A stretch of DNA of 64,000 bases from Kordiimonas sp. SCSIO 12603 (GTDB lineage: Bacteria > Pseudomonadota > Alphaproteobacteria > Sphingomonadales > Kordiimonadaceae): assembly GCF_024398035.1 (NCBI RefSeq), contig NZ_CP073748.1, positions 2,827,520 to 2,891,519 on the forward strand, written 5' to 3'. The position numbers and the translations under genes were made by a program. Positions 32,172 through 40,757 of the stretch are shown here, in pieces (the stretch's first letter is position 1; every line of letters starts with the position of its first letter). The notes under the pieces were generated by a model, which made no database searches, was not told the origin of the DNA, and was given only the letters and a program-made list of their open reading frames with translations.

Positions 32172-33404
32172 CTAGTTCATAATGGCTTTCATAAAGCTGT
32201 CCGCCTGCTCTCGAAGTAACTTAGTGCTCTGATCCAGGCTCATCGCTGCGCCAGAGAGGTCGTTTGCATAATTGATCGTGCTTTCAGAAGTCTCGCGCAC
32301 ATCCTGAATATCCGTAGATACAAGCTGTGTGCTTTGATAAGCTTCCTGAACATTCTGACTGATTTCCATAGTAGCACTGGACTGTTCACTAGTAGCTGAC
32401 GCAATCATACCAGAAATATCATTCAGTGAGGTTATTGACTTACTAATCCCCTCTACAGCATTAACGGCAGTAAGCGTACGTTCCTGGATAGACTGAACCT
32501 GCTGGCCAATTTCACCTGTTGCAGCTGCTGTTTGCTGAGCCAGAGATTTCACCTCACTAGCAACCACCGCGAAACCTTTACCAGCTTCACCCGCGCGGGC
32601 AGCTTCAATCGTCGCATTAAGCGCAAGCAAGTTCGTTTGTTCAGCGATATCATTGATCAAGCTGACAACCTTACCAATTGTCTCTGAAGATTCCCGTAGT
32701 TCATTAATGGTACTAGAAGCGGAAGTTGCTTCCTGATGCGCTGTGGAGGCCTGCTCGGACGATGTTCCAACCTGGCGTGCTACTTCATTCACAGAAGCAG
32801 ACATTTCTTCCACTGCAGATGCTACAGTTTGAACATTCATCGCAGCTTCGCTGGCAGCACCGGAAACACTTGCAGAACGATCTTGGGTATCCTGAGCACT
32901 TGCAAGCAAGGCATCCGCAGCAGATCTAGTTTGAGAAACAGCAGCCTGAATAGTTTCCACAACAGTTAGGATTGCTTCTTCAAAGCTCTTCGCGAGTTCA
33001 TTTTTGCGGTTTGTGTCTGTTTGCTCGGCAATCATCATATTTTCGCGGGCTTGATTGATAATTTCAGCTCCACGACCAAAAGCTCCCATCATGCCTTGCG
33101 GCAAAAATTGGCGATAATATTTCCCGTCAACCGCATGTTCAAGCGCAGCACCTGCTTCACGCACGAAAGCATCAGACATATCAAGCATATGGTTAATATC
33201 ATTCAGCGCCGGAGATAAATCACCATATTCATCCCAATCAATGATACGGGCTTCGAAATTCCCTTTACCCGCGGATACTGCAACTTCTGAAACCGTGGCA
33301 AAAGCCTTTTTATATAGGGCAAGTTCAGCTTCAGCCTCTTCCAAGCGCTTTGCCATGCCGGCATTCACAGGTTCAGGCGTATTTGCTTTAAAGAAATTAA
33401 ACAT
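32172..33404 (-). CDS. Soluble methyl-accepting chemotaxis protein
   Basis: A 410-residue chemoreceptor without membrane segments. Residues about 10-130 form a helical sensor/linker part; the rest is the MCP signalling coiled coil. The hairpin tip is nearly the consensus: [16 protein letters not shown] then I-E-A-A-R-A-G-E. It would act through CheW/CheA in the cytoplasm. The ATG at 33404 has GGAGG five bases upstream and lies inside the last codons of the PAS gene, so translation is coupled. The PAS protein is the likely sensory partner. Confidence 0.92.
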
Positions 33405-33936
33405 GTGCACCTCCTGCACCCCAAACGAACTCACTGTATGTCTGACCAGCGTGTGCCAAAGTATCTTCTAAGAGTTTATAGCTAGCCTCTAGTCCTTCAG
33501 TTCGGTTTTTATAACGCTTTTCTTCATCAAGAAGCGCTTTATAAATTGGCTTAATTGCTTCCAACGCTACTGGTCTAGGCTTCCTGCGATTGGAATGATA
33601 TCCAGAGATACGGCCCGCATGATCAAAGCTCGGTGTCACGTGAGCAAAAACCCAATAATATTTACCGGTGAAAGACATATTCTTCACATAGGCAAACACC
33701 TCTTCGCCTGCTGCGATTTTATCCCAGAGAAGTTTAAAAACTGCGCGCGGCATATCTGGATGGCGGATAATGCTATGCGGTTGACCGATTACATCGTTTG
33801 TCTGCATTTCAGCAACTTTACAGAAAACATCGTTTGCGTAGAGGATACGCCCTTTTGTATCTGTTTTTGAGACAATAATTTCGTGTTCACCGAAGGCGAT
33901 TTCCTCGCCTGTCGGAACAATATTACGCTTTGTCAT
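33397..33936 (-). CDS. PAS-domain sensor, Aer-like
   Basis: A 179-residue soluble protein. The PAS domain spans about residues 15-125: [25 protein letters not shown] and F-A-H-V-T-P-S-F-D. The I-R-H-P-D-M-P segment is typical of Aer aerotaxis sensors, which bind FAD. The C-terminal 50 residues are helical. Its 3' end overlaps the chemoreceptor start by 8 bases. Together they look like a split Aer: sensor and signalling parts made as two coupled proteins. Confidence 0.88.
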
Positions 33937-34364
33937 TTACGTTCCCCACAGAACTTTGTACCTACTATTTCATGCACAATACGCCGTGCATATATCGAGC
34001 GGTTGAGAGAATAGGCCCTGAAGGGTTAATTTTATGTTTACGCATTGAAATTACTATATAATTCAAGGTTGTACAAAAGCATGATTGCTTCAGAAAACAT
34101 AACCCCACCAGCTGGTTACCTTGTGCGCTGCGACACGGCGCCGCATTCCTTGTTAAACCTGTTTCCACCCCCCATTGCTCCTTACCGAAAACTATGTGAA
34201 TAGCTCTCACTATTGTGAGAAAGCCACACTTTTGGCGCTAATCGGCGATTTTAGAAAAAAAATACAACACCGTTTAAAATGGCGGTTTCTTTAGCCTTTC
34301 CTTTTATCTGCACCCTCGCTACCTAGTTGCAACTTTTCATGCGAATATGAAGCGGAACAAGACA
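33937..34364. other. Divergent intergenic region, no gene seen
   Basis: About 430 bases between the PAS-chemoreceptor operon and the DUF481 gene. It is AT-rich and contains a small dyad TCTCAC-tatt-GTGAGA at 34205-34220. An 81-codon minus-strand frame (33965-34210) has no recognisable features or ribosome site and is not called. Confidence 0.5.
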
Positions 34365-35128: not shown

Positions 35129-35237
35129 GCAAAACGCAAGAAACATTATGCTCTGCAATATTATTGAAACATAATTCCTTAATGTCACTGTCAAACCAAT
35201 GATGCGTGATACGCTGTTGCTATATGTGGGAATTAGC

Positions 35238-37301
35238 ATGTCTTCTAAATTATTTATGTCTGTAGCTTTCTGTGCACTTATCACAGCGTGCACACCTGAA
35301 GCACCAAAAGAAGAAACAACTGATGTCATTAGTATTCCAGTTTCAGGTGAAAGCACACCGTCTGCTGGCACTGCCCTTTCCGCCGTTCTTTGGGAAAATA
35401 GGGAGCAACCTAAACAATCCCTCATGTTTGCGGCTGTTGATGATGCCATTGAAATGTACGAAGCAAACGGCAAACGTAAGTTTCGGGCCAGTGGTCGTGC
35501 CTATACCGCGATAGACATTATCAAAGATTATGAAGAAGGCCGAGACCTTATCATCAGCCTGGACGGCCAGTACAACAGGGTTCACACGTATAATGTCAAT
35601 CCACAAGCTGGCAACCTTAAACCCACCAATTTCAGTACCATCGAAAGCAACAGGCGAATAGAGAACATCTGCTCCTACAAAAGCACCAGAGACGGTAATA
35701 GCTATGTCTATACCCTTGGTGAAGATGGTTTTATTGAACACTGGCAGCTTGCAAAACAGAAATATGATGTTCTCACAGGCACCTTAGTTCGCACCCTGAA
35801 GGTAAGCACAGAACCTAAATTCTGTGTCATCGATCCAATGACAGAAACTTTATACGTTGCAGAAGAAGAAATTGGCATCTGGGCATTTGATGCAGCACCT
35901 GAAGGTTCTACCGCCCCAAGTTTTGTAGATGTGGTGAAATTTGGCAATCTTTCAGAAGAAGTGGCTGGCCTAGCCATTTCACGGCCTAACGATGGTACTG
36001 CTATTCTTCTTGCCTCCAATGTGGCAGATAACACTCTCAATGCCTATGACATCAATAATGATCATAATTTCCTAGGTGCTATTGCTCTAACGAGTACAGA
36101 AACGGTTGATGCCGTGGAAGCAGCTCAGGGTCTATTTGCCTCTACGTTCCTTGATACTCTCGTTGTGGCTGATGATGATAACGGAGAAGATCGTACAAAC
36201 TTTAAGTTCGCCAAACTAAGTGATATCCATTCAGCCTTTTCTAAGAAAACAGAGCTCATCCAAAACCCAATCTCCGCCACCAGCAATATTGCTACTGTAA
36301 CAGCCAATGTAGAAACTGCTCCGGTTGAGCACGGCGGTGATGCTGCTGATGACCCAGCCATTTGGGTGCATCCAAGCAATCCCGCTCTCAGCCTCGTTAT
36401 AGGTACAAACAAGCAAGGCGGCCTTTATAGCTACACGCTGGACGGAAAAGTACACCAGTATCTGGCAGACGGTAAAATGAACAACGTAGACATTCGCTAC
36501 GGCTTTGATTTGAATGGTGAAAAAGCAACTATTTTAGCTGCCAGTAACCGTGCAAATCGCTCGATTGCTCTATACCGAATGAATGAAGAAACTGGTATGC
36601 TATCAGATATAGCGGATGGCCCTCAACCAACGCGGATGGAAGACCCATACGGGCTTTGCATGTATCAAAGTACGGAAACTGGCAAAACCTATGTATTTAT
36701 CAATGAAAAAGAAGGCATGGTGCGTCAGTGGGAGCTCGAAGCTTCAGAAAATGGAAAGGTTGCTACAAAACAGGTGCGTGAATTTAACGTTGGCTCAACC
36801 GCCGAGGGCTGTGTAGCTGACGATGATAACGGTATCCTCTTCCAAGCCGAAGAAGATGTTGCTCTATGGGCTTACGGGGCGGAACCAAATGCAGGCGATG
36901 CCCGCACTGAAGTCACCAGTATCGCGAGCAACAAAGCCTTAAAGGATGACCTAGAAGGCGTCTCTATCTATTACGGCGCAAATGGGGACGGATATCTCAT
37001 TCAATCAAGTCAGGGTAACAACAGCTATGCAGTGTTTGACCGTAAGGCGCCCTATACATATCGCGGCAGCTACAGCGTTATTGGCGATATAGCTTCAGGA
37101 ATTGATGGATCGTCTGAGACGGACGGCCTTGATGTTATCAGTACGCCTCTTGGCGAAGCATTCCCACATGGCCTGTTCATCGCACAAGATGGTCGGAATG
37201 TGATGCCTGCTGAAAAGCAGAATTTCAAACTGGTTGATTTTAAAAAAATCGCTGATGCCCTGAACCTTGAATTACACTCAGGTTGGTCACCTCGCAGATA
37301 A
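35238..37301 (+). CDS. Two-domain beta-propeller phytase, lipoprotein
   Basis: A 687-residue phytase (myo-inositol hexakisphosphate phosphohydrolase) of the calcium-dependent beta-propeller family. It starts with a lipoprotein signal with lipobox L-I-T-A-C. Residues about 45-345 form a degenerate propeller domain; residues about 350-680 a complete one, with the active segment G-G-D-A-A-D-D-P-A-I-W-V-H-P and Y-G-L-C-M-Y. The N-terminal copy lacks the D-D-P-A-I-W-V-H segment, so it is likely non-catalytic or substrate-binding, as reported for dual-domain phytases. The start at 35238 is set by the lipoprotein signal. A porin gene converges on it. Confidence 0.93.
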   Translation: MSSKLFMSVAFCALITACTPEAPKEETTDVISIPVSGESTPSAGTALSAVLWENREQPKQSLMFAAVDDAIEMYEANGKRKFRASGRAYTAIDIIKDYEEGRDLIISLDGQYNRVHTYNVNPQAGNLKPTNFSTIESNRRIENICSYKSTRDGNSYVYTLGEDGFIEHWQLAKQKYDVLTGTLVRTLKVSTEPKFCVIDPMTETLYVAEEEIGIWAFDAAPEGSTAPSFVDVVKFGNLSEEVAGLAISRPNDGTAILLASNVADNTLNAYDINNDHNFLGAIALTSTETVDAVEAAQGLFASTFLDTLVVADDDNGEDRTNFKFAKLSDIHSAFSKKTELIQNPISATSNIATVTANVETAPVEHGGDAADDPAIWVHPSNPALSLVIGTNKQGGLYSYTLDGKVHQYLADGKMNNVDIRYGFDLNGEKATILAASNRANRSIALYRMNEETGMLSDIADGPQPTRMEDPYGLCMYQSTETGKTYVFINEKEGMVRQWELEASENGKVATKQVREFNVGSTAEGCVADDDNGILFQAEEDVALWAYGAEPNAGDARTEVTSIASNKALKDDLEGVSIYYGANGDGYLIQSSQGNNSYAVFDRKAPYTYRGSYSVIGDIASGIDGSSETDGLDVISTPLGEAFPHGLFIAQDGRNVMPAEKQNFKLVDFKKIADALNLELHSGWSPRR

Positions 37302-37339: not shown

Positions 37340-38584
37340 TTAAAAACGGAATTGATAGTTAATCTGCAACAGGTTTTCCCGCTGGCTGATTGGTGTATTC
37401 TCAAAACCGCCTGCACGATCAGAGCTTGTATAAAGGTATTCTGCGGAAACAATATGATGCTTTGACGCGCGATATTTAATCGCAGTGGTCAATGCCCAAC
37501 CATCTTCTGCAAGTGGTGGTGTAGTTGCAATGGTTGATGGATCGTTCTGATCAAAAAATTCAATCCGACTAGCAAGCTGAACACGACCAAACTCTTTCGC
37601 TACAAGTAAAGAACCTGTTGTAAAATTCGTACCAAAGAAGGAGCTTTCATCCTCTGTCGGCTGTACCTTGGTTTCACCAAACTGGAATTGCCCAATAATT
37701 GTCCAGTCGTCTGGCAGTTCAGGCTTCGCGGTTATATTAATAAAGCGCGCTTCCCACAAACGCCCTTCTGAACCTACCTGTCGGCTATTTGCCCTATTAT
37801 CATAACCATACAAACGAAGCTCACCAAGGCCGGGCCTGGTCAAATTCACGCCGAGCGCAAAGCCAGGTCTGGCATCAGTTTCCACAAATGGACGGTTAAC
37901 TCGGTCAGACCGGACACCTTCAATATCTGCAATTGGCAGATCACCTAAAAGCCCAATCTTGCTATCATTCAAGGTAAACCCGCGGAAGCCTAGAGCATCC
38001 CCTGCTCTATCATTACCGCCAAAGATCGTAGCTTGTATCTCAGCGTTAAGGGTTTCCCCTTTATACTCTGCAGTAAATTCCGCACCAATTGGCCTGATTT
38101 CTTCTGCAATCCATGTATTCGCCGCAGAATTGGTAATGGTATATTTATTACCCCAAGCTAGACCTTCGTTTTCAAAACTCACTGGAGGAAAGAAAGCCCC
38201 CGCGCGTACGCTATATTGCCACTGCCTCAACTGAACAGGCTTGTAGCGAAGGTAAGCTTCTACAATATCAACTTCTGACGATTGATCAGGGTTATGTTGA
38301 ATATGACCGTGAACTGTAAAGCCATCTCCAAACTTAAGGCGACCGACTAAAGCAATTTCAGCTATTCGGAAACGTTCGTTACCGTTTTCACCGTCCCCGC
38401 CATACCGGAGCTTACCGAAGCCACCATCGAAAATTGATCTCTCGCTATCTGCAAAAGAAAGCCGGGCATTTACCAAACCATGTAAACTTGCATCAACATC
38501 GCTCTGTGCTTGCACAGACGCTGTGCCTCCCACAACACATAGAGCAGCTATAGAAAGATAACCTGAAGAAATTTCGCGTTTCAT
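37340..38584 (-). CDS. Porin-like outer-membrane beta-barrel protein
   Basis: A 414-residue protein with a signal peptide (ending S-V-Q-A-Q) and a barrel pattern of alternating aromatic and polar residues, ending N-Y-Q-F-R-F with a terminal Phe. Segments such as V-E-A-Y-L-R-Y-K-P and V-R-A-G-A-F-F-P-P-V-S-F-E-N resemble phosphate-selective porin O/P-like proteins, though I cannot assign it firmly. The start at 38584 follows GGGAACA; a GTG three codons earlier is possible. It converges with the phytase, so phosphate or inositol-phosphate uptake is a reasonable guess. Confidence 0.8.
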   Translation of the reverse strand: MKREISSGYLSIAALCVVGGTASVQAQSDVDASLHGLVNARLSFADSERSIFDGGFGKLRYGGDGENGNERFRIAEIALVGRLKFGDGFTVHGHIQHNPDQSSEVDIVEAYLRYKPVQLRQWQYSVRAGAFFPPVSFENEGLAWGNKYTITNSAANTWIAEEIRPIGAEFTAEYKGETLNAEIQATIFGGNDRAGDALGFRGFTLNDSKIGLLGDLPIADIEGVRSDRVNRPFVETDARPGFALGVNLTRPGLGELRLYGYDNRANSRQVGSEGRLWEARFINITAKPELPDDWTIIGQFQFGETKVQPTEDESSFFGTNFTTGSLLVAKEFGRVQLASRIEFFDQNDPSTIATTPPLAEDGWALTTAIKYRASKHHIVSAEYLYTSSDRAGGFENTPISQRENLLQINYQFRF

Positions 38585-38859
38585 TGTTCCCACCGAGCAT
38601 TATTTTTCTCAATTCTTAACAACCAACAATAATTTCTTCTAATCATTGATAATAAAGAAAGCGTGAACCCAATCAACTGTCTAAAAATGCAACCATTAAT
38701 GCATATTGCAACACTTAGTCGCATTTCGCAAAAGTAGTATTTTTCAACAAATGATAAACTTATACTAAAAATACAACAAATACATAAGGTTACAAAAACA
38801 CACCCAAAAATGGCATACTTGCACACCTCTTGCAAAGCATAGATCAAACAATCAGCAGA

Positions 38860-39166
38860 GTGCGATGGGCACTATAACCGAGTAGAGAGTCAGCTGAAAC
38901 CAACCGTAGGGCCGTATTCCAAGGTTTCAGTTGGCTCCTCAAAACCGGAGAATAAAGAAAAAGAATGTAAGCAATTAGCCACAGCGAAAGACCAGGTGGT
39001 AACTTCCTCCCCACCACGGAAGGCAGACATCCCCACCACACCAGCTGCACCGCCACTTGATCTTTCGCTACCTCCCTAATTTATGTTCTGAGTTTCATAC
39101 TTTCAGCTCGCTACCGATAACGTTGTCCCCCACGCCATTTTCAATTCCGGTAGCGAGCTTTTTTAT
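38860..39166 (+). ncRNA. Strongly structured RNA ending in an intrinsic terminator (unassigned)
   Basis: This gene-free stretch has four stems whose covarying G-U pairs favour transcription on the plus strand. H1: GTGC (38860-38863) with GCAC (38869-38872). H2: 14 pairs, 38888-38901 with 38923-38936, two G-U. H3: 17 positions, 38983-38999 with 39053-39069, one mismatch and one G-U, enclosing CTTCC (39003-39007) with GGAAG (39018-39022). T: 12 perfect pairs, 39105-39116 with 39148-39159, 31-base loop, then six T. The octamer TCGCTACC occurs at 39065-39072 and in the terminator (39108-39115), so H3 and the terminator could compete. I see no tmRNA, RNase P, 6S or SRP signature. It may be a stand-alone RNA or a leader of the gene at 39246. 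The 275 bases before it (38585-38859) are AT-rich with no gene. Confidence 0.6.
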
Positions 39167-39245
39167 TCTTAATAATTTTCCTATTCTTGACTAATCCTTC
39201 CTCGACGCGCACCATTCAGCGAACGCAGCAAATTTAACTGGCCTT

Positions 39246-40757
39246 ATGTTTTCAAAATTTTTCAAAAAGACCACTCCCGCGGCCTCGCCACTGGATAAGA
39301 AGGTTACAGAGCTTTATATCCAGCATGAACTAGCGGATATAGGCTTTGAAGCAAAACCCGGCATCGCGCAGGAGACATTGGTTGCCGTGCTGATTAAATA
39401 CGGGGAGCTGTTATCACAAACAGGGCAAACGGCTTTGGCGTGCAGACAGTTTGAATTGGCGGCAGATCTTACAGAAAAGCCGCTGCATGTATGGCATCAG
39501 TTTTGTTCTGCACTCCTTGCTCAAGGCGAATTTGAGATACTAGAACAAACTTGTCAGCATATTTTGGAAACTTATCCAGAAGATCACAATTCTCATGCAA
39601 CGATCGCGGCTCTTATAGAAAAGAACGACGGCATCAAACCAGCTCAGTGGTATATGAAAAGTTTTCTCAGGAGGTGCGGCGAAAACTTTATCCCTGCGTC
39701 TGGGTCTGGCCTTGAAGAGCCTGCAGGGAAGCTTCTAATCACCTACGGGTATGAGAATACCAGATATGTTATCGGCAGGCGTAACAACGGCGATTTCAAG
39801 CGCGTGCGTAAAGGTGGACATTATATGCTTGATCATCTTCTGGAGGATCAAAGATATGATACCAATCATTATACGATACTGGATGAAAACATCCTGAAGG
39901 ATAAAACTGCTCCGTCAAAGCCCTTTAACTTGATACTGAATGATATTGCCGACCCGGATTTAGAACTGCGCTCTCTGGAAACACTGGAAACCTTTCTTGA
40001 GGAACATCCAAGTATCCCTGTCATCAACGCTCCCCATATGGTCAAAGAAACAACCCGGGACAGTAACTACAGGCGCTTGAATGAAATCCCCGGTGTAAGG
40101 TTTGCAAAAACAGAACGGATTGAGGTCAGAAAAAGCGATATTGAAAAAGATGTAGCCCAAATTGCCGAAGCTATTCTGGCACTTGGCTATAGCTTTCCCT
40201 TCATTATTCGCCAAACAGGCACACATACTGCTGTCTCAACAGAGCTTCTTGAAGATAAAGGTGCCCTTGAAGCCTATCTGTTAGCCCTTCAAGAAGATGC
40301 CACGCTTTACGCCATTGAATATATAGAAAACAAATCAGATGAAGGGCATTACTCCAAAATCCGCTTCTTCTGTATTGATGGCACGCTTTACCCTGTTGTC
40401 TACCATACAGATCAGGTTTGGAATGTTCACGGTAGCAACCGAAAAACTTTCATGAAATCTTATGATTGGATGTTGGAACGGGAACAAAAATTTCTAAACA
40501 ACCCACCTTCAGTTATTGGCGAGGAAATCTATAACCGTATTAAAGCTCTCCAGGATATTGTGCAGCTTGATTTCTGGGGTTTAGACCTTACCCTGATGCC
40601 TAATGGTGACATTCTCATCTTTGAACTTAACCCCGCGATGCGCCACAGCTTTGATCACGCTAAAACCTTCCACTATATGATCCCGCATATGCAGGCTATT
40701 AAAGATGCCTTTGGCCGTATGGTAGAGCGCAAACTGGCTGAAAAAGCATCTGTCTAA
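39246..40757 (+). CDS. TPR and ATP-grasp domain protein
   Basis: A 503-residue protein. Residues about 15-130 form TPR-like helices (G-E-L-L-S-Q-T-G-Q-T-A-L-A-C-R-Q-F-E-L-A). The C-terminal 300 residues look like an ATP-grasp ligase: F-P-F-I-I-R-Q-T-G-T-H-T, Y-A-I-E-Y-I-E-N and the metal/ATP segment L-D-F-W-G-L-D ... I-F-E-L-N-P-A-M-R-H. Such enzymes join a carboxylate to an amine or thiol with ATP; the substrate is unknown. No partner biosynthetic gene is adjacent. The start codon at 39246 lacks a clear ribosome site. The structured RNA ends about 80 bases before it. Confidence 0.75.
   Translation: MFSKFFKKTTPAASPLDKKVTELYIQHELADIGFEAKPGIAQETLVAVLIKYGELLSQTGQTALACRQFELAADLTEKPLHVWHQFCSALLAQGEFEILEQTCQHILETYPEDHNSHATIAALIEKNDGIKPAQWYMKSFLRRCGENFIPASGSGLEEPAGKLLITYGYENTRYVIGRRNNGDFKRVRKGGHYMLDHLLEDQRYDTNHYTILDENILKDKTAPSKPFNLILNDIADPDLELRSLETLETFLEEHPSIPVINAPHMVKETTRDSNYRRLNEIPGVRFAKTERIEVRKSDIEKDVAQIAEAILALGYSFPFIIRQTGTHTAVSTELLEDKGALEAYLLALQEDATLYAIEYIENKSDEGHYSKIRFFCIDGTLYPVVYHTDQVWNVHGSNRKTFMKSYDWMLEREQKFLNNPPSVIGEEIYNRIKALQDIVQLDFWGLDLTLMPNGDILIFELNPAMRHSFDHAKTFHYMIPHMQAIKDAFGRMVERKLAEKASV

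Follow-up and report, generated by a model that had tools for sequence, protein, structure and literature searches.

An intergenic region of Kordiimonas sp. SCSIO 12603 carries an RNA structure on its plus strand that is conserved in two species, this strain and Kordiimonas laminariae, and on balance we lean toward reading it as an independent, structured noncoding RNA of ~310 nt that has its own terminator and would act in trans on G-rich ribosome-binding sites. Positions refer throughout to the window, the whole 64,000-nucleotide stretch of DNA that was analysed. What is unusual about this RNA is its size, its nearly invariant long terminator loop and its narrow distribution; as a new orphan intergenic sRNA, it would fall into an already known class. 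The literature searched listed no study on sRNAs of either Kordiimonas or Kordiimonadales, and the RNA adds an orphan structured sRNA to that bacterial order. Its features and those of the flanking DNA are collected in Table 1.

Table 1. Positions of the proposed small RNA gene, its parts and neighbouring sites in the window.
Feature	Positions	Strand	Basis or remark
Tentative target, start region of divergent porin mRNA	38581..38616	-	predicted duplex; AUG 38584-38582
Upstream block expected to hold the RNA's promoter	38801..38855	+	46/55 bases identical
Proposed small RNA gene	38856..39168	+	structure and terminator kept in two species; putative transcript ends
SL1, small 5' hairpin	38859..38873	+	minimum-energy fold
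SL2, long hairpin	38878..38948	+	changed pairs remain paired
SL3, long imperfect hairpin	38983..39070	+	70/88 bases identical between the two species
CCCCAC copy 1	39009..39014	+	predicted unpaired; absent in K. laminariae (counts against mechanism)
CCCCAC copy 2	39031..39036	+	predicted unpaired; also present in K. laminariae
First octamer TCGCTACC and linker CUACCUCCC	39065..39076	+	sequence
Intrinsic terminator	39105..39168	+	12-pair stem, 31-base loop, U tract
CCCCAC copy 3	39128-39133	+	in terminator loop
Promoter-like site TTGACT-17-CACCAT for downstream gene	39187..39215	+	both hexamers identical in K. laminariae

A plus-strand structure conserved in two Kordiimonas species

The four stems described in the first-pass annotation are all present in the minimum-energy fold. 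SL2 has an inner helix of 14 contiguous pairs (38888-38901/38923-38936), the outer arms of SL3 (38983-39000/39053-39070) form 9 + 8 pairs with one mismatch, and the terminator stem (39105-39116/39148-39159) is followed by TTTTTATTC. The 31-base terminator loop reported earlier is borne out, at 39117-39147, as is the repeat of the octamer TCGCTACC at 39065-39072 and 39108-39115, both copies of which are unchanged in K. laminariae. The SL2 loop region (38902-38920, AACCGTAGGGCCGTATTCC) is likewise unchanged in that species. On the plus strand, the RNA folds to -102.9 kcal/mol, compared with -69.0 ± 5.6 kcal/mol for dinucleotide shuffles (z -6.1), none of 100 shuffles being as stable as the native fold. 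Energies computed by strand were -108.1 kcal/mol for the minus and -104.4 kcal/mol for the plus strand, and since the minus strand is about equally stable, the strand cannot be assigned from folding energy alone. On this point the earlier statement does not hold as worded, and it is the comparison of substitutions between the two species that favours the plus strand.

Among genome contigs, the sole related locus found belongs to K. laminariae strain 5E331 (L023), which carries this RNA at the corresponding position; its RNA is separated from the window RNA by 32 substitutions, and both sequences fold to about -100 kcal/mol. When the same substitutions were placed at random on the plus strand, 0/100 mutants were as stable as the real partner in either direction (real partner, -98.9 or -102.3 kcal/mol; random-mutant mean, -75.9 or -78.3 kcal/mol), and a second energy test with random placement gave 0/500. 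On the minus strand, 7/100 and 14/100 mutants were as stable in the two directions. None of ten neighbouring control segments preserved its fold in both directions; two of them looked as good as the RNA in a single direction, SulP+0 (0/100 in one direction, 11 in the other) and porin+300 (1/100 and 85), results that count against the sRNA reading, and the SulP+400 segment, with 75 substitutions, is possibly misaligned.

Individual base pairs were also compared. The window's own fold has 100 pairs, 13 of them changed; 9 of the changed pairs stay paired and 4 break, whereas 11.4 ± 2.1 broken pairs would arise by chance (P 0.0002, 5000 trials). One pair of this fold is changed on both sides, which is not significant with two sequences only (P 0.42). 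Using the K. laminariae fold, 8/15 changed pairs stay paired on the plus strand; the corresponding counts for the minus strand are 11/20 and 6/15. A consensus fold has 9/96 pairs changed and 0 broken, that fold itself having been picked to fit both species. Conservation is uneven along the RNA: 39064-39166 is identical at 100/103 positions and the SL2 and terminator loops are nearly invariant across the two species, while identity within SL3 is about what the fourfold-site divergence of neighbouring genes would give (9-27% of fourfold-degenerate sites differ between the two species in four neighbouring genes; an out-of-frame phytase segment was left out of this comparison).

The strand specificity of this fold preservation and the conservation of a terminator with its U tract both speak against viewing the region as conserved regulatory DNA that holds no RNA gene and whose hairpins are incidental. 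We consider that view extremely unlikely, although the upstream DNA is well conserved in places and no clear promoter is apparent: scans for consensus sigma-70 sites upstream of the RNA (38801-38855) found none, a result that counts against the sRNA reading.

Identity and distribution of the RNA

No family among the 4227 of Rfam 15 reaches its gathering threshold here; a relaxed Rfam search returned four sub-threshold matches, three of them on the minus strand. A tRNA/tmRNA search found none within the 64-kb window. 6S RNA (RF00013) is alike in being a structured RNA gene and differs in genomic location, and we rejected this identity because the 6S match of this genome lies at a different place (G000:C1:1143384-1143544), where it scores 46.6 bits with the cut-off at 46.4. 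Two same-strand frames of at least 20 aa lie inside the RNA. The 27-aa frame was rejected as a gene because it contains a stop codon in K. laminariae, and the 45-aa frame, which is open for 38 codons in that species, was rejected because it has a TTG start and no evident ribosome-binding site and crosses the terminator. The earlier proposal of a new small RNA is therefore supported by conserved structure on the plus strand, a terminator belonging to the RNA, the absence of an Rfam match and the noncoding character of the same-strand frames examined.

A DNA search of 59 relatives recovered the region in the window's genome (G000) and in G016 only, beyond a fragment in G032, a 35-base match located downstream of the RNA; G016 and K. 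laminariae 5E331 were counted as one genome. Among 19 genomes of the genus, the region was found at full length in 2, the same pair, and the rest gave short pieces at chance level. RNA models of the 5' and 3' parts were built from the two species' sequences. The 5' model detected the RNA in 2 genomes when 29 of the family were searched (E up to 1), and likewise in 2 when the search covered a sample of 196 from the order (E up to 0.1, with stricter filters); matches to the 3' model were certain in 2 of the 29 family genomes. Weak matches to the 3' model in G022 (E 0.136) and at another position of the G016 genome (E 0.338) were dismissed as chance, most of the terminator stem being absent from them. 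The RNA is single-copy within the 3.85 Mb genome of the window, and plasmid records and viral contigs gave no match to it. Since it was found in two species only among the genomes searched, the RNA would be young, fast-evolving or lost elsewhere, and this two-species restriction could shed light on the origin of sRNAs that pair with their targets through a long terminator loop.

Relation to the downstream gene

The earlier note offered, as an alternative, that the region is a riboregulator with a competing terminator, leading into an ATP-grasp gene at 39246. Such a cis-acting leader or attenuator would choose between termination and read-through on that gene's transcript, and its arrangement has some appeal: the RNA lies on the same strand as the gene, 78 bases 5' of the start codon, with the terminator between the two and the octamer repeat conserved. 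The competing terminator, however, amounts to a sequence repeat. Pairing of the first octamer with the terminator 3' strand has a predicted probability of 0, and the forced alternative fold reaches -81.8 compared with -104.4 kcal/mol, that is, 22.6 kcal/mol worse; co-transcriptional folding was covered by one truncated fold. An attenuator with mutually exclusive stems was accordingly discarded, as the alternative fold falls well short of comparable stability.

The flanking DNA also argues against a leader. A conserved promoter-like site stands between the terminator and the gene in both species; it matches only 8/12 consensus positions, with no more than 3/9 orthologue upstream regions scoring as high (P 0.013 against shuffles), and the adjoining stretch at 39167-39185 is identical at only 7/19 positions between the species. 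In seven other species, the orthologous genes (42-47% identity) have upstream sequence that differs by eye and that holds no match to either RNA model within the up to 1.5 kb searched, so that the RNA is kept beside the downstream gene in one relative only, K. laminariae. The RNA is probably not a leader of the gene at 39246, the attenuator reading appears very unlikely, and the result argues against riboregulation of the downstream gene. The ATP-grasp label is itself weak, as the product matches no Pfam family and its RimK-family match scores 17.9 bits against a cut-off of 143.4; no firm result came from comparing the protein (39246-40757) to entries of Pfam, NCBIfam and PDB. Relatives of this protein occur in most Kordiimonas genomes searched.

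Proposed mode of action and candidate targets

In the reading toward which we lean, an independent gene would give rise to an RNA of ~310 nt ended by its own intrinsic terminator, and unpaired C-rich stretches, namely the CCCCAC motifs in SL3 and the terminator loop together with the linker CUACCUCCC, would pair with G-rich ribosome-binding sites and so block translation. Hfq is probably bound at the 3' end, a putative step suggested by the U-rich end seen in the sequence, and the divergent neighbouring porin would be a tentative target. CCCCAC occurs three times in the RNA, compared with 0.26 expected (P 0.0004), and each copy is predicted to be mostly unpaired, as part of the linker is too. 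K. laminariae has two copies, located in SL3 and the terminator loop and each reading UCCCCCAC. We infer that the RNA acts in trans.

This proposal draws on known sRNAs. The Listeria sRNA LhrC carries UCCC motifs in its loops, terminator loop included, that bind the Shine-Dalgarno region of a target mRNA (PMC4132741). The Kordiimonas RNA is LhrC-like in its C-rich loop motifs, again with one in the terminator loop, the pairing here being predicted only; unlike LhrC, a multicopy family, it is single-copy in its genome. AbcR1/AbcR2 of Rhizobiales are trans-acting sRNAs with the unpaired C-rich hexamers CUCCCA and GUUCCC, and they share with our RNA an alphaproteobacterial host and unpaired C-rich motifs (PMC5461406); the Kordiimonas RNA differs in reaching no Rfam family threshold. 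As in LhrC and AbcR, C-rich motifs suit G-rich ribosome-binding sites, and the unpaired C-rich motifs expected of an LhrC/AbcR-like anti-Shine-Dalgarno sRNA are present in the predicted fold.

Among the starts of 89 window ORFs of at least 100 aa, the best partner of the terminator loop is that of the divergent porin, at -21.4 kcal/mol. The predicted duplex opens with ten pairs to the leader sequence GAAUUGAGAA, followed by two GC pairs, and runs on through the ribosome-binding site (GG and GGGA) to CAAUG with the start codon; in K. laminariae neither the paired part nor its energy changes, and one base outside that part differs. Loops as good at the porin start made up 1.3% of shuffled loops and 1.0% of other 31-mers from the window. 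The porin 5' leader (38594-38668) is identical between the species at 73/75 positions, compared with the 9-27% change at fourfold sites of nearby genes, a level of conservation that fits a target site without proving one. Might the RNA then be an antisense-like regulator of this porin only? The complementarity to leader, ribosome-binding site and start codon and the near-identity of the leader favour such a role, but across the starts of the window and of roughly 10% of the genome, the porin ranks 12/360 by duplex energy and 8/356 once the energy needed to open the mRNA is included (4 starts lacked enough context), so other genes score equally, and it was noticed afterwards, five loops having been tried. 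We consider porin-only regulation decidedly unlikely, and the modelled duplex is suggestive only of the porin as a target. For the SL2 loop and the linker, the porin start is no preferred partner and ranks 276 and 182 of 360. Unlikely as well, if less so, is a recent, lineage-restricted sRNA whose whole 31-base terminator loop would serve as the seed, pairing across the porin's leader, ribosome-binding site and start codon, and whose C-rich repeats in SL3 would dock other mRNAs.

The gene for the enterobacterial sRNA MicF adjoins ompC, an example of an sRNA divergent from a porin gene and concerned with porin-related regulation. Our RNA gene is likewise divergent from a porin, the porin being only a suggested target here. 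A porin orthologue in another genome (G017, 70% identical) has a different leader, and no RNA was detected upstream of it. The porin gene (37340-38593, with BBP2 / Porin_O_P matches) is faced by a phytase gene (35199-37301), a pair that suggests phosphate scavenging. A Pho box scan found 3 matches in the window against 5.4 expected, none of them in the RNA/phytase/porin region, and the idea that a Pho box links the RNA with these two genes was rejected for want of a nearby match.

Searches for complements across the two genomes gave no clear excess, two of the three patterns being near or below their reversed-pattern controls. Complements of the terminator loop numbered 19 in both genomes against 107 in controls, those of the linker 24 against 25 (two in each case being the RNA gene itself), and GTGGGGA before ATG was found 95 times against 65. 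This outcome counts against the proposed mode of action. Together with the near-invariance of the SL2 and terminator loops, it would suit an RNA whose partners are not mRNAs but other small RNAs, which it sponges, or a protein, its invariant loops serving as bait. There is a precedent in the alphaproteobacterium Caulobacter, where CrfA is an Hfq-associated intergenic sponge RNA that acts on sibling sRNAs (PMC12559287). CrfA resembles the Kordiimonas RNA as an alphaproteobacterial intergenic RNA, one for which Hfq is likewise proposed here, and differs in having sibling sRNAs as its targets. The C-rich motifs, however, fit ribosome-binding sites, and we assign the sponge reading a distinctly low chance.

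Returning to mRNA targets, two natural-looking ribosome-binding-site matches are common to both genomes, one in a gene that we take to resemble ccoO and the other in the gene at 33936, whose ribosome-binding site GTGGGGAACGTAAATG is a two-block complement of the terminator loop in both genomes. In the stretch 33397-33949 (minus strand), the gene at 33936, of PAS type by eye, precedes a chemotaxis-receptor-like gene.
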